Both the position numbers and the translations under genes were made by a program. Under the pieces are notes generated by a model that was given only the letters and a program-made list of their open reading frames with translations, searched no databases and had not been told where the DNA came from. From assembly GCA_005776885.1 (NCBI GenBank), contig SXOD01000052.1, forward strand, positions 1 to 64,000: a DNA stretch of 64,000 nt, read 5' to 3'. The DNA comes from Planctomycetia bacterium. Lineage in GTDB: Bacteria; Planctomycetota; Phycisphaerae; Phycisphaerales; SM1A02. Below, in pieces: positions 3,328 through 36,069 of this stretch (the stretch's first letter is position 1; the number at the start of each line of letters is the position of its first letter).

Positions 3328-3734
3328 TGTCGCACGTGGGCCCCACGATGGCGCGCGGCAGCGACTGCACCACCGAAGGCATCCGCGTGGAGGCGCTGCC
3401 GCAGTTCCTGCCCACCTACTCGGACTCCGACGCGGGACGGTTCGTGTTTGGGTACCGAGTCCGGATCACGAATGGGAGCGGCACTCGCGTCCGAGTGACG
3501 AGGCGCTACTGGAGAATCGTCGACGCCGATGGCGAGCCGCACGTGGTGGACCAGCCGGGCGTGGTCGGGCAAACGCCGTTCCTCGAGCCGGGAACCTCGT
3601 TCGAGTACGCCAGCTACTGCCCGCTTCCCACGGAGTGGGGAACGATGGAGGGGCACTACGTCGTCGAGCGTGATGGAGCGGCGCCGATTGAGGCCGCCAT
3701 CGGTCGATTCTTCCTCGTGCGGACCGATCCGTAG
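3327..3734 (+). CDS. apaG: ApaG family protein
   Basis: 135 residues with the single ApaG beta-sandwich domain: TEGIRVEALPQFLPTYSD, FGYRVRITNGSGTRVRVTRRYW, GEPHVVDQPGVVGQTPFLEPG, FEYASYCPLPTEWGTMEGHY. Length and motifs match ApaG (about 125-130 aa), a protein annotated as affecting Co2+/Mg2+ efflux whose biochemical role is unsettled. The start at 3327 overlaps the TGA of the preceding lipoprotein gene; longer in-frame extensions upstream are out-of-frame shadow of that gene. Confidence 0.9.
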   Translation: MSHVGPTMARGSDCTTEGIRVEALPQFLPTYSDSDAGRFVFGYRVRITNGSGTRVRVTRRYWRIVDADGEPHVVDQPGVVGQTPFLEPGTSFEYASYCPLPTEWGTMEGHYVVERDGAAPIEAAIGRFFLVRTDP

Positions 3735-5775: not shown

Positions 5776-5825
5776 TTGGATTGATCGGAATCGACCAAAA
5801 AAACGTCGAATCCGATCAGCCCAAC
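5776..5825. repeat. Palindromic element Pal-1 (A-loop orientation)
   Basis: Imperfect palindrome of about 50 bp between the divergent trpC and CPBP genes. The arms TTGATCGGAATCGACC and GTCGAATCCGATCA enclose AAAAAAAC. It is flanked by TTGG and CCAA, which also pair. The minus strand is open through the element, reading LIGFDVFLVDSDQSN. Member of a family shared with copies at 22039, 25584, 28689, 28889, 33985 and 36021. Confidence 0.9.
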
Positions 5826-5870
5826 CGCGGCGCCGGGCGTGGCGGTGCAGACACAGTTAGAGTTCGCGCC

Positions 5871-7861: not shown

Positions 7862-7923
7862 GGGGTGGGGGCGGCCTGGCCACTGCGCCTCCCGGACGCT
7901 GCGCCTCTCGGACCTCTCGAACC

Positions 7924-7964
7924 CAGGCCAAATCCGGCCTCTCAGAGGCGCTATTTGGCCTGAG
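7924..7964. repeat. Palindrome copy A at the 3' end of the DUF559 gene
   Basis: A 41-bp hairpin with outer arms CAGGCCAAAT/ATTTGGCCTGAG and inner arms GCCTCT/AGAGGC. Its reverse complement matches copy B (9128-9168) at about 39 of 41 positions, so the two copies form inverted repeats flanking the nuclease gene. It supplies the last codons and TAG stop (CAG GCC AAA TAG) of that gene. The neighbouring flank TCGAACC is by contrast in direct orientation with copy B. Confidence 0.8.
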
Positions 7965-9024
7965 ATGGAGTGGAGTGCGGCGGGGCACGCCCGCGTGCGG
8001 GATCCGCCGCCCCTCCGCCAGCTCGATCCCGCATCGCCGCACGGATCTCCGCCACCACGCGGGGCGCCTCGTCACGAATGTGTGCGTACGTGTAGCGGAG
8101 CAGGTGCCAGCCGTCCGCCAAGATTGCATTCTGCCGGTCGCGGTCGTTGGCAAACGCGCGACCGCTGACGTGATGCGCATAGCCGTCCAGCTCCAGGCCG
8201 ATCCTGAGCATCGAGTGGCCAAAGTCAAGTCGGACCGTTCGATCGCCAAGGCGCTTGAGCCGTACCTCGAGGTTTGGCGTCCAACCTTTGATCCGGTGTC
8301 GACTGAGCAGCTTTGCAGTGATGCGCTCCAGTTCGGACTGCGTCCCAGCCTGGAACTGCGCCAGGCACTGGCCGATCAACGTCGAACCGGCGCGCCCGCG
8401 CGTGCCACGATGGTGCACGTGATCGTGAAGGTCATCGACCTTGAACAGACGCTGCTGCATGGCAGCGTCGACCCACTCTCGAGCCAGCCCATCGTGCAGG
8501 AGTGGAAGTGTGTCAAGAAAGGCATCGAGTGGCCTGCGGATGCGTCGACCGCCCTCGAACACCAAGGGCTTGGCGGGACTTGGGGGCGGGCGGATCACCG
8601 TGACGCCTGGGATGCGGCATCGCGTGGTCACCGGGAGCAAGCACAGCACTGGGGCTGAGTCCAACTCCGGCATCGTGATTCCCATCAGCGTCAGTGCGGC
8701 GCTTCCTGACGTGATGGCCCCGCGACTCCCACCGCTCAAGTGAATCGCCCACGCGGCCAGCTCCGCCGCCGCGCGACCTTCCTTCGGCGGCGTGTCAGTG
8801 GATGGCCAGAGGCATCCCCTGATCTCCTTCCACAAGCCTAGGGCGAGTCGATGGCCCACGGCGCGGCAATCGACACCATGGCGCAACGCCTGCCGCCGCG
8901 TGACGAGTCCGCCTTGGGACTCGGCGAGCGCTGAGACGTCGAATGGCGTGTGCAGTCGCCGCAGCCCCGCCGTTTCGGACGGCTTCCTCGTCACGAGGCT
9001 CTCGGCTCGGTGATGGCCTGGCAT
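7951..9024 (-). CDS. AbiEi-type winged-helix plus DUF559 (Vsr/PD-(D/E)XK-like) nuclease protein
   Basis: About 357 residues from the ATG at 9024 (MPGHHRAESLVTRK). The N-terminal third (DVSALAESQGGLVTRRQALRHG ... GHRLALGLWKEIRGCLWP) resembles the AbiEi antitoxin-like winged helix. The C-terminal part reads RLDFGHSMLRIGLELDGYAHH, DRDRQNAILADGWHLLRYTYAHI, the DUF559 pattern in which an Asp, a Glu (LELDG) and a downstream basic helix form a Vsr-like nuclease core. Such proteins are common in actinobacteria and their role is unclear; no partner toxin gene is adjacent. The gene lies between two inverted palindromes and its stop falls inside one of them, which suggests a mobile or transposed unit. 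Confidence 0.7.
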   Translation of the reverse strand: MPGHHRAESLVTRKPSETAGLRRLHTPFDVSALAESQGGLVTRRQALRHGVDCRAVGHRLALGLWKEIRGCLWPSTDTPPKEGRAAAELAAWAIHLSGGSRGAITSGSAALTLMGITMPELDSAPVLCLLPVTTRCRIPGVTVIRPPPSPAKPLVFEGGRRIRRPLDAFLDTLPLLHDGLAREWVDAAMQQRLFKVDDLHDHVHHRGTRGRAGSTLIGQCLAQFQAGTQSELERITAKLLSRHRIKGWTPNLEVRLKRLGDRTVRLDFGHSMLRIGLELDGYAHHVSGRAFANDRDRQNAILADGWHLLRYTYAHIRDEAPRVVAEIRAAMRDRAGGGAADPARGRAPPHSTPSQAK

Positions 9025-9127
9025 GGCGGTCACCGTATGGGCAAAAAGGGGCGTTCCGCGCGAGCAAGCGGAAAGGAAGGGTGCGTGGGTGTTGGCGTCG
9101 ACTCGGTGCCCGTGCAGGAGTCGAACC

Positions 9128-9168
9128 CAGGCCAAAAAGCGCCTCTCAGAGGCCGGATTTGGCCTGGG
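9128..9168. repeat. Palindrome copy B upstream of the DUF559 gene
   Basis: 41-bp hairpin with arms CCCAGGCCAAA/TTTGGCCTGGG and inner GCCTCT/AGAGGC. It is about 100 bp before the nuclease start and in inverted orientation to copy A (7924-7964). Confidence 0.8.
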
Positions 9169-9180
9169 ATGGGGCCGGCT

Positions 9181-9230
9181 CGGGCCACCTCGAGCCGCCT
9201 CGAGCCGCCTCGAGCCGCCTCAGGCCGCCT
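9181..9230. repeat. 10-bp tandem repeat, five units
   Basis: CGAGCCGCCT occurs three times exactly (9191-9220), flanked by the variants CGGGCCACCT and CAGGCCGCCT. Together with palindrome copy B it fills the non-coding stretch 9025-9295. Confidence 0.85.
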
Positions 9231-9295
9231 CAACGATTATCGGACCATCCATTTTCTCCCCACTTCTGCCCTCGTGCCGATCAGAGGGAACCCCC

Positions 9296-9604
9296 ATGCC
9301 ATGCGCCTCCGACTGCACCTGTCCGCACATCGACAAGGGGGATCGTCGCTGCGCGGATCGATTCACCCTCGGCGGACTTGAAGGGGCCTTCGAGGTGTGC
9401 ATATCTGGGTGGAACGCCTGCCCGCACTACCACCGCATCAGCACGGAGGAGTCGTTCCAGCGACGGGTGGACGCCGGCGAGCCCGGGGCCGCGCAGTGGT
9501 ACGAACACCTTCGGCGCGCGGCGTCGCCCGGGGCCCCAACTATGCAGCCTGTGACCGTCGCGAGCCGACCTGTGCAGGACGCACGTGTTCGACAAGCTGT
9601 TTGA
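9296..9604 (+). CDS. Small cysteine-rich hypothetical protein
   Basis: 102 residues. The first 45 contain six cysteines and several histidines in the pattern CASDCTCPHIDKGDRRCADRF ... CISGWNACPHYH, which could bind zinc or form disulfides. The Cys-rich part is followed by a charged helix-like region (STEESFQRRVDAGEPGAAQWYEHLRRA). AGAGGGA precedes the ATG by about 8 nt. Its 3' end overlaps the Xer recombinase start by 20 bp, so translational coupling is plausible. I do not recognise the family. Confidence 0.55.
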   Translation: MPCASDCTCPHIDKGDRRCADRFTLGGLEGAFEVCISGWNACPHYHRISTEESFQRRVDAGEPGAAQWYEHLRRAASPGAPTMQPVTVASRPVQDARVRQAV

Positions 9605-10601
9605 CGAATTTTTTGGCTACTGCGCCGTCGAGGTTGGCCTCGCGCCATCCACGATGGAGGCGTATGGGCGCGACCTGCGGCTCTTCGCGTCGCAGATGGC
9701 TGCGCGCGCGGCGGCCGGTGGGGCGGCGACACCGGCCGAACTCCGACTGGCCGACATCGCCGAGCACGTGCAGTGGCTCTCGCGCGAGCAGCGCTACGAG
9801 CCCACCACCATCGCACAGCACCTGGCCGCGATCCGCGTCTTCTTTCGGTGGGCGCATGCGACCGCTCGACTCCCCAATGATCCCGCCCGTCTCATTCAGC
9901 GGCCCACCCGGTGGCGCCGCGTCCCAGACGCCATGACCCCGTCGCAAGTCCGAAAGTTGGTGGAGTGCCCGTCGCCGGAACACGGCCCGCTGTGGCTTCG
10001 CGATCGTGCGGTCCTGGAGCTCATGTACGCCGCCGGCCTGCGCGCGTCGGAGGTGTGCACGCTCAAGGTCAACGACTACAACCGGACGCTCGGCTGCGTC
10101 ACGGTGATCGGCAAGGGCAACAAGCAGCGGGTCGTGCCGATCGGCGTGCCATGCATGAAGTGGATCGATCAATGGCTCGGCGACCCAGCGGGCCGCGTCG
10201 CCATGACGCACGATGCCGATGGGAATGTGCGCGGCGGCACCGCCCGCACCGGCACGGCTCGCGGCGGACGCGATGGATTCCGCATGTTCCTTTCGGCCAC
10301 CGGGCTGCCCCTGGAGCGAGTGGCGCTGTGGCAGATCGTCCAACGCACGGCGGCTCGGGCGGGGATGGGTCGCGTGCACCCGCACAAGCTTCGGCACACG
10401 TTCGCCACGCACCTGATGATCGGCGGCGCCGACCTTCGAGTCGTGCAGGAGATGCTGGGCCACGCGAACATCACCACGACGCAGATCTACACGCACGTGG
10501 ATCGCACGCGGCTGCACAGCGTCATTGCGGAGTTCCACCCGCGCAGCATCAAGCGCTCGGCGGGACGTGCCGCAGGGCCTCTCCCCCGGCCGGCGGCGTG
10601 A
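9585..10601 (+). CDS. Tyrosine recombinase, XerC/XerD-like
   Basis: 338 residues. An N-terminal SAM-like core-binding domain (FDEFFGYCAVEVGLAPSTMEAY, LRLFASQMAAR) precedes the catalytic domain. The catalytic set is complete: Arg in GLRASEV (residue 153), Lys in GKGNKQR (177), H267 and R270 in HKLRH, His in GHANI (293), Tyr in QIYTHV (302). It is a candidate for chromosome dimer resolution at dif in the cell. An insertion of about 40 Gly/Thr/Arg-rich residues lies before FRMFLSATG. The GTG start at 9585 overlaps the Cys-rich ORF. A second Xer protein starts at 63155. The 3' end overlaps the convergent FMN reductase by 53 bp across a tandem duplication. Confidence 0.88.
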   Translation: MFDKLFDEFFGYCAVEVGLAPSTMEAYGRDLRLFASQMAARAAAGGAATPAELRLADIAEHVQWLSREQRYEPTTIAQHLAAIRVFFRWAHATARLPNDPARLIQRPTRWRRVPDAMTPSQVRKLVECPSPEHGPLWLRDRAVLELMYAAGLRASEVCTLKVNDYNRTLGCVTVIGKGNKQRVVPIGVPCMKWIDQWLGDPAGRVAMTHDADGNVRGGTARTGTARGGRDGFRMFLSATGLPLERVALWQIVQRTAARAGMGRVHPHKLRHTFATHLMIGGADLRVVQEMLGHANITTTQIYTHVDRTRLHSVIAEFHPRSIKRSAGRAAGPLPRPAA

Positions 10602-20759: not shown

Positions 20760-20812
20760 CCTTGAAACGGTGGCCTTTTCACGCCTATCGTCAAAAAGCC
20801 ACCGCTTCAAGG
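20760..20812. other. Large imperfect hairpin upstream of tRNA-Ala
   Basis: CCTTGAAACGGTGGCCTTTT (20760-20779) pairs with AAAAAGCCACCGCTTCAAGG (20793-20812) at 18 of 20 positions, with a 13-nt loop. It sits between the AmpG-like start and the tRNA-Ala promoter. A role as terminator for transcription entering from either side is possible; the outer bases resemble those of the hairpin at 869-920. Confidence 0.6.
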
Positions 20813-20922: not shown

Positions 20923-20995
20923 GGGCCTGTAGCTCAATTGGGAGAGCGCTTCCATGGCATGGAAGAGGTCGTCGGTTCAACCCCGATCAGGTCCA
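20923..20995 (+). tRNA. tRNA-Ala (anticodon GGC)
   Basis: Acceptor stem GGGCCTG/CAGGTCC (one G-T pair), D arm AGCTCAATTGGGAGAGC, anticodon stem CTTCC/GGAAG with loop ATGGCAT giving GGC, T arm GTTCAACCC. Discriminator A; CCA not fully encoded. The remnant integrase frame ends 4 nt downstream. Confidence 0.93.
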
Positions 20996-22038: not shown

Positions 22039-22087
22039 GTGAATTGATCAGATTCGACCATTTTCTGGTCGATTTCGATCAATTCAC
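22039..22087. repeat. Palindromic element Pal-2 (symmetric variant)
   Basis: GTGAATTGATC ... GATCAATTCAC arms with three mismatches around a TTTTC loop (GACCATTTTCTGGTC). It lies 14 bp downstream of the sdhB stop. The homopolymer loop of the other copies is replaced by a symmetrical centre. Confidence 0.85.
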
Positions 22088-28669: not shown

Positions 28670-28688
28670 GCCCCGTCCGTCCCCCCCG

Positions 28689-28739
28689 GTTGGGCTGATC
28701 AGAATCGACGTTTTTTTGGTCGAATCTGATCAATTCAAC
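28689..28739. repeat. Palindromic element Pal-4 (T-loop orientation)
   Basis: GTTGGGCTGATCAGAATCGAC and GTCGAATCTGATCAATTCAAC enclose GTTTTTTTG. Intergenic, about 40 bp before the start of the dehydrogenase gene. Its plus strand reads GLIRIDVFLVESDQFN. Separated by 150 bp from Pal-5 in the same orientation. Confidence 0.92.
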
Positions 28740-28779: not shown

Positions 28780-31524
28780 ATGCCAACGGACGCTGCTCGT
28801 CGAGAACCCCTTCAATCGCTGGCGATCGGGGCTGTGGCGTTGTCAGTGCTCCTGGTGCCGTCCGCTGTGTGGCTGGTGGGTCATCGCCGTGAATTGATCG
28901 GAACGGACGGTTTTTTGGTCGATTCCGATCAATCCAACGGGATGGACCGCACTTCCCGTCCCCGCCCGCTCACGATTCCCCTCACCGGCGGCGACGCCTC
29001 GCGCGGGATCGCCGCGCCCGAGGGCTTCGTCGTGGAGCAGGTCTACGGTGTTCCGGCGGGGGACGACTCCCTCGTGTGCCTGGCATTCGATCCCCAGGGA
29101 CGCATCCTCACCGGCGCGCAATACGCGGGGATCGTGCGGATCGATCTGGGCCGCGGCGCGCCTGGGGCCGCGCCTGGGTCCCCGCCTCCAACCGAATCCC
29201 TTCCGCTGACTGACGGGACACCGTGCCCACTCCGAAGCGTGCAGGGCCTGGCCTTCACTGGCAACGACCTCTTCGCCGTGACCGGAGCAATGGCTGACCA
29301 ACCCGCGGGCCTCTGGAAACTGCGCGATCCTGAGGGCGACGGCGTGTTCTCCATGCCGGAGATCTGGTGCGAGTTCACCGGACAGATGGGCGAACACGGA
29401 CCGCACCAGATCGTGGTCGGTCCCGATGGCTGGATCTGGCTCGCGGCTGGGAACCACACGGACATGCCGGGACCGGCGGGTTCGCGCGTGCCGCTTGTCT
29501 TTGCCGAAGATCGACTTGGCAAGCGACTGTGGGATCCCAACGGCCACGCCGTCGGCCTCACCGCACCGGGTGGATGGATCATGCGTTTCGATCCCACGCG
29601 CGACGCACGCGAGTTGGTCGCGGTCGGCTTTCGCAACCCGGTCGATCTCGCGTTCGGCCCGCACGGCGAAGCATTCACCTACGACGCCGACATGGAGTGG
29701 GACATGGGCATGCCCTGGTATCGACCCACGCGAGTGAACCATGTCGTGAGCGGGGTCGATTTCGGCTGGCGCAGCGGCTCCTGGAAGTGGGGCGATTGGT
29801 ACCCCGATTCGCTTGGCAGCGTGGTGGACATCGGGCCCGGCTCACCGTGCGGCGTGCTGTGGAGCGATGACCTTCAGTTTCCCGAACCCTGGCGAAGCAG
29901 CCTCTTCCTCCTGGACTGGACCTTCGGCACGATGTATGCGTGCGCACTCACGCCCGACGGCGCAACATGGAACGCGGAGCCAACCGTCTTCCTCACGGGT
30001 TCGCCACTTCCATTGGTGGACGCGGTCGCGGGGCCGGATGGCGCGATGTATGTCGTGACGGGTGGGCGTCGATTGCCCAGTGCGATCGAGCGCTTGAGGT
30101 GGACGGGCGGTGAGGTGGGCGTCGCCGCCGCGCCCGCCGCCGAAACGGCTGAGGCGTCCCAGCGCAAACAGCTCGAATCGCTCCACAAGCCCGCAGAGGA
30201 CATGCCGGCATTGCTCGCCCAGCTTGAGCCAGCGCTCGCTTCCGAGGATCCAGCCATCCGCGGCGCCGCTCGCATCGCGCTGGAGCACCAAGCGGCGTCG
30301 CGTTGGGGTGCGTGGGCGTTGTCGCCTGATCGAGCCACCCCGCGCGCCACGATCCGGGCCTGCCTCGCACTCGCGCGGTGCGGAGAGTCGCAGGAGGTGG
30401 AGGCTGCGCGGGCGCGATTGCTATCGATGCCGCTCGCTGAGCTCCCGCGAGACGACCGCGCTGATGCCTTGCGTGCGATCGCGGTGACCTGTGCGCGAGT
30501 CACGCCAACGACGGAGTCCGCGCTCGTGATGCGGCGGGTGCTGGAGCCCTTGTTCCCCGCGCGCGACCCCGCGATCGACGGCGAACTGGTGGAACTCCTC
30601 GTCGCGGCGGAGAGTCGTGAGGTGGTGACTCGAGCACTGGACCTTGTGGGCACCCGCACGCCGGCCGTCGCATCGAATGACGCCGCGCAGGCCGCGCTCG
30701 TCGCGCGAAATGCGCAGTATGGCCGCGATGTGGAGAGAACCACTCGCACGCGCCCGCCCACGGAGGACATTCGCCTCATGGCCGCGATTCGACTGTCCCG
30801 CGTGGGATGGAACGGGCCGCTTCGCGATCGATACGCCGCGTGGTTCGCAGTGCACGCTGGCGCGCAGGGTGGCAACTCCTACGCTGGTTTCATCGAGCGC
30901 ATCAGGAAGGAGGCGGGCGAGTCGATTCCCATGACGGCCGCCGAGCGCGCGCAGTTTGAGCGGCTGTCGTCGCCCGCAGCGATCGAGGCATCTGGTTCCG
31001 TGCACCCGCCACAAGGTCCGGGACAGCAATGGACCACCGCGTCGCTCGCCGCGGCGATGCGTTCGAGCAGCGGCGCCGAGCCCAGCGCTGCGCAACTCAC
31101 CCGTGGCCGCGAACTCTTCGTCGCCGCGCTGTGCGCATCGTGCCATCGTGCAGGCGACGTCGGCGGTGCCTCCGGCGTGGGCGGGCCGGACCTCACCACG
31201 CTGGCCGGCCGATTCTCCATCGACGATCTCGCGCGCGCGATCTGCGAGCCCGCCGCGACGGTGAGTGACCAGTACCAATTTACGGAGGTCACGATGCGCG
31301 ACGGGTCGGTGATCGTCGGTCGCATCGTCGAGGAGTCTCCCGCGCGCGTGATCGTGATGGAGAGCTTGCTGGCACCGGACGCGGCCCGCGAAATCGATGC
31401 CTCGGACATCCAGTCGCGTCGCGTGTGGCCGGGGAGCCCCATGATGCCGGGCCTCCTGGACCGTTGCTCGCCCGACGAGGTGCGCGCCCTGGCTGCGTTT
31501 CTTGGATTGCGACCAGGCACCTGA
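28780..31524 (+). CDS. Secreted multidomain dehydrogenase: PQQ/GSDH-type propeller, HEAT-like region and cytochrome c
   Basis: About 914 residues from ATG 28780 (MPTDAARREPLQSLAIG). A signal/anchor helix (LAIGAVALSVLLVPSAVWLVG, about 13-33) is followed by an in-frame palindromic element (residues about 37-53, ELIGTDGFLVDSDQSN). The propeller-like part (EGFVVEQVYGVPAGDD, PHQIVVGPDGWIWLAAGNHTD, VAVGFRNPVDLAFGPHGEAFTYDADMEWDMG) resembles membrane-bound dehydrogenases of planctomycetes. A helical (HEAT-like) middle precedes a cytochrome c with CASCH (785-789) and a C-terminal MPGLLDRCSPDEVRALAAFL helix. Substrate unknown. GTG 28756 is a possible longer start. Confidence 0.78.
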   Translation: MPTDAARREPLQSLAIGAVALSVLLVPSAVWLVGHRRELIGTDGFLVDSDQSNGMDRTSRPRPLTIPLTGGDASRGIAAPEGFVVEQVYGVPAGDDSLVCLAFDPQGRILTGAQYAGIVRIDLGRGAPGAAPGSPPPTESLPLTDGTPCPLRSVQGLAFTGNDLFAVTGAMADQPAGLWKLRDPEGDGVFSMPEIWCEFTGQMGEHGPHQIVVGPDGWIWLAAGNHTDMPGPAGSRVPLVFAEDRLGKRLWDPNGHAVGLTAPGGWIMRFDPTRDARELVAVGFRNPVDLAFGPHGEAFTYDADMEWDMGMPWYRPTRVNHVVSGVDFGWRSGSWKWGDWYPDSLGSVVDIGPGSPCGVLWSDDLQFPEPWRSSLFLLDWTFGTMYACALTPDGATWNAEPTVFLTGSPLPLVDAVAGPDGAMYVVTGGRRLPSAIERLRWTGGEVGVAAAPAAETAEASQRKQLESLHKPAEDMPALLAQLEPALASEDPAIRGAARIALEHQAASRWGAWALSPDRATPRATIRACLALARCGESQEVEAARARLLSMPLAELPRDDRADALRAIAVTCARVTPTTESALVMRRVLEPLFPARDPAIDGELVELLVAAESREVVTRALDLVGTRTPAVASNDAAQAALVARNAQYGRDVERTTRTRPPTEDIRLMAAIRLSRVGWNGPLRDRYAAWFAVHAGAQGGNSYAGFIERIRKEAGESIPMTAAERAQFERLSSPAAIEASGSVHPPQGPGQQWTTASLAAAMRSSSGAEPSAAQLTRGRELFVAALCASCHRAGDVGGASGVGGPDLTTLAGRFSIDDLARAICEPAATVSDQYQFTEVTMRDGSVIVGRIVEESPARVIVMESLLAPDAAREIDASDIQSRRVWPGSPMMPGLLDRCSPDEVRALAAFLGLRPGT
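28889..28938. repeat. Palindromic element Pal-5, inside the dehydrogenase coding sequence
   Basis: GTGAATTGATCGGAACGGACG and GTCGATTCCGATCAATCCAAC enclose a GTTTTTTG loop. In frame with the host gene it encodes ELIGTDGFLVDSDQSN, just after the N-terminal membrane helix. About 50 bp long. Confidence 0.92.
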
Positions 31525-33984: not shown

Positions 33985-34034
33985 GTTGGATTGATCAGAT
34001 TCGACCAAAAAAACGTCAAATCCGATCAATTCAC
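33985..34034. repeat. Palindromic element Pal-6 (A-loop orientation)
   Basis: GTTGGATTGATCAGATTCGACC and GTCAAATCCGATCAATTCAC enclose AAAAAAAC. Intergenic, between two minus-strand secreted-protein genes. The minus strand reads ELIGFDVFLVESDQSN. Confidence 0.92.
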
Positions 34035-34061: not shown

Positions 34062-35888
34062 TCAGCCCCACGCCGCCAGCATCGCCGCGAGATCGCCGCC
34101 GCCGACGCTGCCGTCGCCGTCGATGTCGGCCGCCGAGCCCGAGAGGCCCCACTGGCTCAGCATCGAAGCCAAGTCCTGGCCGTCCACGATGCCGTCGCCG
34201 TTGAGATCAGCGGGATTGCCAGCGCCACCTTCCGGTCCGAGCACGGCCACGGAGACATTCGGCTCCGCACCTGGCTTGAACAGGCCAAGCGTGCCGGACG
34301 CCGTCGCGGGCGCCGCATTGGCATCAAACCAGAAGGTGTAGATGGTCGAGAAGCGCAGCGCGTTGCCGTTGGCGCTGGTGGCGTAGTTCCCGCCGGTCCA
34401 GGTCACGGCGCCGCCGCTGGTGGAGATCGTCCAGTCGGTGCCGGAGTACGGGTCGCCCGAGTGGTAGTTGATGTCGTGGAAGCCAGCGTTCGTCACGCTC
34501 ACGCCCGCCGGCACCGGCACGGAGAACGAGTTGCCGCTCCGGTCGCTGTTCAGATTCTGGATCGCGTAGTTGTAGCGCCAGGTTCCGTTGCCGTTGTCCG
34601 TGGCGTTGTAACCGACCAAGAACCGGCCGTCGCCAGCCACATCGACCGGCGTGATCGTCACGGACGGGACCGCTGCCTTCCACGCTTCGATGGCCGCCTC
34701 CTGCCGGTGCGTCGAGCCCGTCAGCGAGATCGAGTACGCGCCGCTGGTGAGCGTTCCCACCGAGCACGATCGCCACGACGCGTTGTTGTCGTCGTTGCCC
34801 GCCGCGGCATCGCCGGAGTGGATGTACTGCGCCTCGATCAGGTAAGTCGCGCCGGCGTTCATTGCGGGGTTCAGGTCATTCGCATTCACCTGCACGCGAC
34901 GCCCGATTGTGGCCGGAGCCGACGGCATTCCCTGGTTGTAGGTGCCTGGGAAAATGCCCGTCGCGGCATTGACCTCGGATCGAGTTCCCAAGCCGCTCTG
35001 ACTGCCGTTGAGGCCTGAGGAATAGGGGTCCGAACATCCGATTCCCAGCCAGGTGCCGCTGCTGGACGCCTGGCACGAGCCGCAGACCGTGCCCTGGAGC
35101 GCGGTGAATCCGTGCTTGCCCCAGCTCTGGCCGATGTGCTCGATGCGACCGTCCTTGATGCGGTGGATGTTCTGCGGGATGAATGGGTGGAGGTTGCTCG
35201 GCGAGGCGAACCAATCCAACAAGGCATCTCCGATGTTGCAGCTGGTCGTGCCGATCGCGTACGCCATGATGGTCTGGCCGCCGCTCGTGACGCTGCCGTA
35301 CTTGCTGATGTTGGGGAGGTCGCCCACGATGACATCGGGACCGTTGCCACCGCCGCCGCCACCGCCGCCGCTGCCCGCTTCGAGGGTCATCGTGCCGGAG
35401 CCGGAGGCAGCCTGCCAGCCTCCGATCCGGATGTAGTACTGGGTCCCGGCCGTGACGGGGAGCGAGGGGATGACGGACTCGTAGTTGCCCCCGCACGAAT
35501 CGTCGTCGCAGGCAATCAACGTCGAGCAGTTGCCCTCATAGACAACGAGGGAAGTGTCGTAGCTGCTGCCGCACAAGTTGATCGAGAGGTCCATGTCCTC
35601 GGACGCCGTCCACGTGAACCACACATCCTTGCTGTTGCCCCAGTCGAGGTACACGCAACTCCCATTCGAGGGCGGGCTGGCACTTGGCGTCATGGCGGTG
35701 GTGCTGAACGCGTTGGCGCCCATCACCGCGGTCAAAGCCGTGGCGCACTCGTCGCCAGCAGGCCCACCGGCGGTGCCGCCATCATCGGGCCGAGCGAATG
35801 CGGTCGGAGCGATTGAACTGGAGAGCTGTCCGACGAAGAGGGCGGTGGCGCCGATGGTGAGAACGCTGATGGCAGTGGTGGTCTTCAT
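34062..35888 (-). CDS. Secreted protein with pre-peptidase-like, unknown central and dockerin-like domains
   Basis: About 608 residues from MKTTTAISVLTIGATALFVG, a signal peptide. The N-terminal part (VWFTWTASEDMDLSINLCGSS, DTSLVVYEGNCSTL, VTAGTQYYIRIGGW) resembles pre-peptidase or Ig-like domains. A poly-Gly linker (eight Gly, about residues 171-180) leads to a conserved-looking domain (NIGDALLDWFASPSNLHPFIPQN, IEHIGQSWGKHGFTALQGTVCG, GLGTRSEVNAATGIFPG). A further domain precedes two dockerin-like repeats (DLNGDGIVDGQDLASMLSQWG, DIDGDGSVGGGDLAAMLAAWG). Function unknown; the domain architecture indicates an extracellular protein. Confidence 0.8.
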   Translation of the reverse strand: MKTTTAISVLTIGATALFVGQLSSSIAPTAFARPDDGGTAGGPAGDECATALTAVMGANAFSTTAMTPSASPPSNGSCVYLDWGNSKDVWFTWTASEDMDLSINLCGSSYDTSLVVYEGNCSTLIACDDDSCGGNYESVIPSLPVTAGTQYYIRIGGWQAASGSGTMTLEAGSGGGGGGGGNGPDVIVGDLPNISKYGSVTSGGQTIMAYAIGTTSCNIGDALLDWFASPSNLHPFIPQNIHRIKDGRIEHIGQSWGKHGFTALQGTVCGSCQASSSGTWLGIGCSDPYSSGLNGSQSGLGTRSEVNAATGIFPGTYNQGMPSAPATIGRRVQVNANDLNPAMNAGATYLIEAQYIHSGDAAAGNDDNNASWRSCSVGTLTSGAYSISLTGSTHRQEAAIEAWKAAVPSVTITPVDVAGDGRFLVGYNATDNGNGTWRYNYAIQNLNSDRSGNSFSVPVPAGVSVTNAGFHDINYHSGDPYSGTDWTISTSGGAVTWTGGNYATSANGNALRFSTIYTFWFDANAAPATASGTLGLFKPGAEPNVSVAVLGPEGGAGNPADLNGDGIVDGQDLASMLSQWGLSGSAADIDGDGSVGGGDLAAMLAAWG

Positions 35889-36020
35889 GGCTGATAACAA
35901 TGAGGGGACTCAGTGGCCCGCCTGGGCTTGATGGCTCCAACTTATCCCGCATTCCGCCGTGATGCCACCGCCGCCGTGAATTTTCCTCAAGTTGACACTG
36001 ATCGCGGGGACTCTCCCCCA

Positions 36021-36069
36021 GTGGGCTGATCAGAATCGACCAAAAAAACGTCGATTCCGATCAGTTCAC
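36021..36069. repeat. Palindromic element Pal-7, overlapping the end of the dehydratase gene
   Basis: GTGGGCTGATCAGAATCGACC and GTCGATTCCGATCAGTTCAC enclose AAAAAAAC. The right arm supplies the final codons (GTG AAC) and TGA stop of the gene at 36061-37968 on the minus strand. The minus strand reads ELIGIDVFLVDSDQ through the element. Confidence 0.92.

Follow-up and report, generated by a model that had tools for sequence, protein, structure and literature searches.

Genes for AbiEi-DUF559 proteins lie between two matched, mostly palindromic repeats, with a different repeat for each paralogue, and several of these repeats are also found as lone copies in the same genome, both the units and the lone copies being present or absent between congeners. 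The association is real and general, and its layout is RAYT/REP-like, built around an unrelated enzyme. Few repeats are commoner in bacterial genomes than palindromic ones, and DUF559 is a very common bacterial family whose role is not known. A Vsr-fold nuclease with a private palindrome would supply a candidate enzyme, open to testing, for other such repeats, and would also give a role to a large family of unknown function. The nuclease-palindrome units resemble a class of very small mobile elements whose driving enzyme has no known part in moving DNA, and cultured hosts are available for DUF559 units in Mycolicibacter, Tsukamurella, Sinorhizobium, Deinococcus and Sphingomonas.

The window, the whole 64,000-nt stretch of DNA analysed here, belongs to a 2.49-Mb assembly (G000), which was compared with two congeners (G001 and G002) and with a genome of the same family (G210). 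Its features are collected in Table 1. A preliminary description had placed one nuclease gene between two 41-bp hairpins, the reverse complement of one matching the other at about 39 positions, with the stop codon of the gene in the first hairpin and the second hairpin about 100 bp upstream of the start. This arrangement is borne out: the 41-nt cores (7922-7962 and 9128-9168) agree at 39 of 41 positions (95% identity), the minus-strand reading frame ends in hairpin A, and some 100 nt separate the ATG at 9024 from hairpin B. The longest start, TTG 9135, falls inside hairpin B, and the model gives the first 51 residues of this longer product a pLDDT below 50; the likelier start is the ATG at 9024. 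In a repeat search of the window the hairpins were recovered both as an inverted pair (7922-7969 and 9121-9168, 90% over 48 nt) and as a direct pair (52 nt, 85%), the outer motif TCGAAC...GATGG having the same orientation in A and B and the inner loop being inverted in B. Pairing can extend past 41 nt in several copies of this hairpin, which defines palindrome family F1. The pair is not a product of chance, as is evident from the occurrence of the same palindrome at seven sites of the assembly and from the covariation score given below. The neighbours of the gene are trpS and a tyrosine recombinase gene, with an intervening 101-aa ORF that has no Pfam match. The recombinase gene (9585-10601, Phage_integrase E 1.5e-42), which we take to be XerD-like, lies beyond hairpin B and is probably outside the unit, since this stretch is syntenic in the congeners.

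Table 1. Features of the window unit, lone palindromes of the window and, in the last row, a hairpin of another locus
Feature	Position	Strand	Basis or remark
Stretch without counterpart in G001	7865..9310	.	synteny comparison; same two genes about 120 nt apart in G001
Hairpin A	7917..7969	+	F1 copy; model R1 bit score 77.8; holds the stop codon of the nuclease gene
AbiEi-DUF559 gene	7951..9135	-	394 aa from TTG 9135; PF04480 E 5e-5
Predicted Vsr/EDxHD-type nuclease part, residues 265-373	8017..8343	-	3hrl Z 13.2; 3r3p I-Bth0305I Z 13.0; 1cw0 Vsr Z 10.5
Codons of D304, E315, D317, H322, D331, R334	8134..8226	-	residues invariant in 26 aligned homologues
Predicted AbiEi-like part, residues 59-262	8350..8961	-	PADLOC AbiEi E 1.3e-11; 6y8q Z 8.9, rmsd 6.9, 183 aligned
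Hairpin B	9121..9173	+	second F1 copy; model R1 bit score 72.7
Lone F4 palindrome	5776..5826	+	palindrome scan
Lone F4 palindrome	22040..22081	+	palindrome scan
Lone F4 palindrome	28684..28739	+	weaker copy at 28890-28937
Lone F4 palindrome	33986..34033	+	left of ORF 34062-35900
Lone F4 palindrome	36022..36063	+	right of ORF 34062-35900
Hairpin of locus L139 (Mycolicibacter)	3415-3464		

The window protein scores above the curated cut-off of the DUF559 profile PF04480 (23.6 bits against 20.6), and its AlphaFold2 model, with a mean pLDDT of 81.8, is predicted to combine an AbiEi-like fold with a nuclease fold of the Vsr/EDxHD type. Foldseek returned no PDB match reaching E 0.001 for this model, and the fold assignment comes from a second structural comparison made after Foldseek, which is not an independent search. 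In that comparison the predicted model superposes on E. coli Vsr (1cw0) with an rmsd of 2.3 over 100 aligned residues, and the match to I-Bth0305I is to the catalytic domain of that enzyme. The modelled Vsr fold would suit a repair nuclease tied to a cytosine methyltransferase, the palindromes then serving as terminators or regulatory hairpins, and an excerpt of PMC12907096 likewise holds a DUF559 protein of Caulobacter, VsrA, responsible for the SOS response that arises when cells lack a solitary cytosine methyltransferase. Such a role is very improbable here: at E 0.01 the window protein matches no NCBIfam family, the vsr model TIGR00632 included, and repair would leave unexplained both the dispersal of the palindromes and the matched private repeats on the two sides of each gene.

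With the window protein as query, nine AbiEi-DUF559 places were found in G000, and comparison of their 600-nt flanks gave a matched repeat pair at all nine. The upstream flank matches the downstream flank in eight; the ninth, on C65, has strong palindromes in both flanks that are mutually related but diverged. A single palindrome family common to all paralogues was rejected, as the repeats are nine different ones: F1 at the window gene, F2 at C3:13043, F4 at C21:18699 and six others. F2 and F4 are the clearest families besides F1, and both are widely dispersed as lone copies; additional copies of the repeats of the C52 and C11 genes lie on C24 and C21. At 83% identity, G001 has the C11 unit and its two palindromes in syntenic position. 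Half-arms of the C11 palindrome (CTTGAAACGGTGGGAAT) form 41-nt tandem arrays beside the C11 gene (L029, L023), and the copy number of these arrays differs between congeners.

An alignment of ten proteins was used to scan one genome per species, which yielded 42 loci, and the flanks (from 500 nt beyond the gene to 60 nt within it) were searched for a matched pair at E<1e-5. Such a pair brackets 21 of 29 testable full-length homologues, a set that includes the nine G000 genes; the tie of matched repeats to AbiEi-DUF559 genes is present well beyond the window. For control ORFs from these loci, each 200 aa or longer, the count was 1/162 (Fisher 1.8e-20 against the homologues), and random intervals gave 4, 8, 16 and 12 of 400 each, or 1 to 4%. 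Near-duplicates are present (L127, L128 and L129; L135 is the G001 ortholog of C11), and 18 of 26 full-length homologues are positive when L128, L129 and L135 are dropped. The eight full-length failures at this threshold are L075, L125, L137, L142, L145, L148, L151 and L155; L137 passes at 1e-3, and L075 is the C65 gene, whose pair is diverged yet clearly palindromic. Four loci (L141, L147, L149 and L150) were untestable because a flank was short. C-terminal-only matches were positive in 4/18 cases, one of which, L159, has a GC-rich repeat that is not a clear hairpin. When folding was compared with dinucleotide shuffles, the repeats of 20 of 25 units reached z < -2, those that did not being both C23 units, L128, L136 and the C52 array.

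Enrichment relative to control ORFs is seen in loci of several phyla, the member genomes including MAGs labelled Phycisphaerales, Singulisphaera, Nanopelagicales and Actinomycetota, together with cultured Mycolicibacter. Some of the MAG labels may be wrong. The contig of L145 carries the label Acidobacteria; over kilobases it shows 75-84% identity to L139 and L140 of Mycolicibacter and, on this similarity, is probably mis-binned. Correlation between protein similarity and palindrome similarity is ambiguous by the Mantel test (Pearson 0.268, matched by 0/2000 permutations; Spearman 0.103, by 204/2000).

The sole positive control ORF, window 34062-35900, lies between two lone F4 palindromes, and chance bracketing therefore does happen. 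It is accordingly conceivable that some other enzyme moves the palindromes and that each DUF559 gene is a passenger caught between two copies, as would also fit the F3 palindromes of G001, for which no cognate gene was seen (see below). We consider this unlikely in view of the nine paralogues out of nine that are bracketed, each by a different family, and of the enrichment over control ORFs in several phyla; moreover, G000 gave no match to the Y1 transposase profile PF01797, and a RAYT was rejected as the mover there on that ground.

Matched repeats are not confined to genes with the AbiEi-like part. In plasmid records, matched palindromic repeats flank 11 of 22 short DUF559 genes at E<1e-5. 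These come from 24 loci hand-picked from the plasmid collection for taxonomic spread, L212 (which is of the full-length type, E 3e-13) and L220 being left out; L201, whose ORF runs off the locus, was scored as a miss, and L203 and L214 are related. Positive hosts include Sinorhizobium, Sphingobium, Sphingomonas, Deinococcus, Azospirillum, Picosynechococcus, Qipengyuania and Neisseria, and two Sphingomonas units are inserted in operons (pnt and suf). Two short genes of the family of the window, L103 and L104, have matched repeats as well. The Sinorhizobium palindrome occurs at 507 places in 160 records of the plasmid collection, and the left flank of its gene was not found in the other S. meliloti records of that collection. 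The Neisseria gonorrhoeae gene L215 lies between matched 119-nt repeats; it may be ngo0050, whose structure is 3hrl, the top structural match of the window protein. The Aliivibrio plasmid gene L220 is bracketed by attC-like repeats in a different arrangement.

The dispersal of the palindromes was followed with two models, R1, built from the seven F1 copies, and R2, a wider model of 14 palindrome copies. In G000, R1 finds F1 at seven sites, hairpins A and B included, along with related palindromes; lone copies of the hairpin, sought on the suggestion of the earlier description, are thus present elsewhere in the assembly, and the hairpin is not exclusive to the window unit. R2 finds 54 distinct sites (7 F1 and 47 F2) in G000, about 20 palindromes of F2/F3 type in G001, the last few of them weak, two weak ones in G002 and two sites in G210; in a sample of the order at E 1e-4 with stricter filters, 198 of 201 genomes had no match to it. 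The covariation score of the 14-copy alignment, in which the rows are related and the structure was derived from the same rows, is 0.462 as against 0.216 +/- 0.021 for shuffles, none of 500 being as high. F2 is a near-perfect palindrome with outer boxes GTCC...GGAC (46 copies listed), and by a crude criterion 6/46 of these copies lie inside an ORF of at least 150 aa. The five lone F4 palindromes of the window have their cognate AbiEi-DUF559 gene elsewhere in G000, at C21:18699-19601. The palindrome scan of G000 covered 568,304 nt in stretches chosen for holding palindromes or DUF559 genes. A palindrome at window 20760-20812 resembles that of the C11 paralogue (CCTTGAAACGGTGG...), with a tRNA nearby at 20923; a search of the window against Rfam gave four tRNAs only.

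Comparison with the congeners reveals empty sites for both units and lone copies. In G001 a diverged spacer separates trpS from the next gene and holds neither the hairpins nor the nuclease gene; G002 too is without the window unit, which is thus absent from the syntenic site in both close relatives. Synteny of the gene does not hold in every relative, and the hairpin, dispersed as it is, keeps its association with DUF559, so that neither a fixed resident gene nor a general intergenic repeat describes what is found. Six F2 copies on C3:20001-40000 were compared with the syntenic regions of G001 and G002. In G001, the palindrome is absent from three of five resolvable sites, one absence being a 3-nt gap as against 84, and at the other two an F3 palindrome stands in its place with both arms changed; in G002 it is absent from all three testable sites. 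At -35/+35, 32 of 45 F2 copies have the same base on both sides and 6 have complementary bases, the strongest association of all position pairs scanned; a 1-bp duplication at CAASTTG could account for this, as could a conserved mismatch. The proposal of a minimal mobile unit with a RAYT/REP-like layout is supported in part: lone copies, matched repeats and empty sites bear it out, and as regards target duplications there is a weak hint of 1 bp in the F2 sequences.

Variation within single loci bears on a further possibility. Six Nanopelagicales-type loci have common flanking genes, the unit being in one orientation in L130, L132 and L137 and in the other in L131, L134 and L147, and the hairpins are species-specific and match each other wherever the locus has both (L147 is cut). 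The unit gene at this locus diverges much more than its neighbours. Three species against three in opposite orientation, a rapidly diverging gene and a match to the AbiEi models of the PADLOC defence library would all be in keeping with a swappable defence or conflict gene, the hairpins being recombination platforms for allele exchange or flipping. We give this explanation little credence: it predicts neither lone palindromes far from any such gene nor empty sites for lone copies, and no AbiEii nucleotidyltransferase was seen among the neighbours of the window gene that were tested (trpS, the tyrosine recombinase and the 101-aa ORF).

Other lineages also have scattered copies. In Mycolicibacter, a 400-kb sample of the 4.43-Mb genome holds two further palindromes, one of which has its inner stem changed on both sides, and the Tsukamurella hairpin occurs at three places in the gene-bearing record and once each in two more records of that species. 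The genes themselves would appear to move rarely, given that the C11 unit is syntenic in G001 and that the Nanopelagicales unit stays at one locus. In G001, a 96%-complete assembly, the search with the window protein found AbiEi-DUF559 at C59, which has another palindrome, and as a truncated gene on C27, and no gene detectably cognate to the F2/F3-type palindromes. Either the gene was lost after the palindromes had spread, or the link is looser than proposed, and the F3 palindromes of G001 are the weakest point of the REPtron-like reading.

On balance, we favour the reading in which the gene, together with the hairpins on either side, is a REPtron-like element, a Vsr-fold nuclease taking the place of the HUH transposase, and we think it somewhat probable that this is correct. 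One plausible course of events is that the AbiEi-like N-terminal part would bind the arms of the cognate palindrome, that the Vsr/EDxHD nuclease part would nick the extruded hairpin or its base, and that strand transfer or repair would then copy the hairpin, or the whole hairpin-gene-hairpin, to new sites. Lone palindromes would be the non-autonomous copies of such an element. It is proposed that palindrome and protein change together, so that each lineage comes to have its own version. From the arrangement of genes and repeats we infer that the nuclease cleaves and mobilises its palindrome. A broader idea, that DUF559 at large is a second enzyme class that maintains and spreads palindromic repeats, RAYT-like but with a Vsr-fold nuclease, and that it accounts for many palindrome families without a transposase, is put forward tentatively, as something rather less than an even prospect. 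No description of an association between DUF559 and palindromes was found among the titles and abstract openings returned by searches of the open-licence PMC literature, and PMC12306157 makes no mention of endonuclease, RAYT, Vsr, transposase or DUF.

Several known systems share individual parts of this arrangement. The nuclease fold is like that of the EDxHD homing endonuclease I-Bth0305I and of E. coli Vsr; to our knowledge, neither is bracketed by palindromes or has an AbiEi-like part, and the window protein differs from the vsr family in that its predicted Vsr fold comes with no TIGR00632 match. Its N-terminal half is like the AbiEi antitoxin, whereas the fusion to a nuclease and the lack of an AbiEii neighbour among the genes inspected set it apart from the AbiE system. 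Integron attC sites were dropped as an identity for the palindromes, conserved core boxes being absent by eye. In Legionella, according to an excerpt of PMC12308824, DUF559 is found with a transposase in repeated recombination hotspots. The CGTC-tagged REPs, as portrayed in part of PMC3733652, apparently have no dedicated transposase, and A-T pairs almost invariably come first in the stem after the CGTC tag. Like them, the palindromes described here are dispersed in bacterial genomes without a RAYT; unlike them, F1, F2 (both judged by eye) and the plasmid palindromes have no CGTC tag with an A-T stem start, and a scan of the 24 plasmid loci for CGTC-tagged hairpins gave one chance-like match. 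The closest parallel is with the REPtrons, which excerpts of PMC8266576 and PMC3733652 present as single enzyme genes between palindromes, with many lone palindromes and several families per genome, each family having its own enzyme and apparently co-evolving with it. No GTAG tag is seen on F1 or F2, unlike in REPtrons. As in a REPtron, the window gene is flanked by a palindrome that is dispersed as lone copies in the same genome, and the enzyme between the hairpins is a DUF559 nuclease of predicted Vsr fold where the RAYT is an HUH/Y1 transposase.
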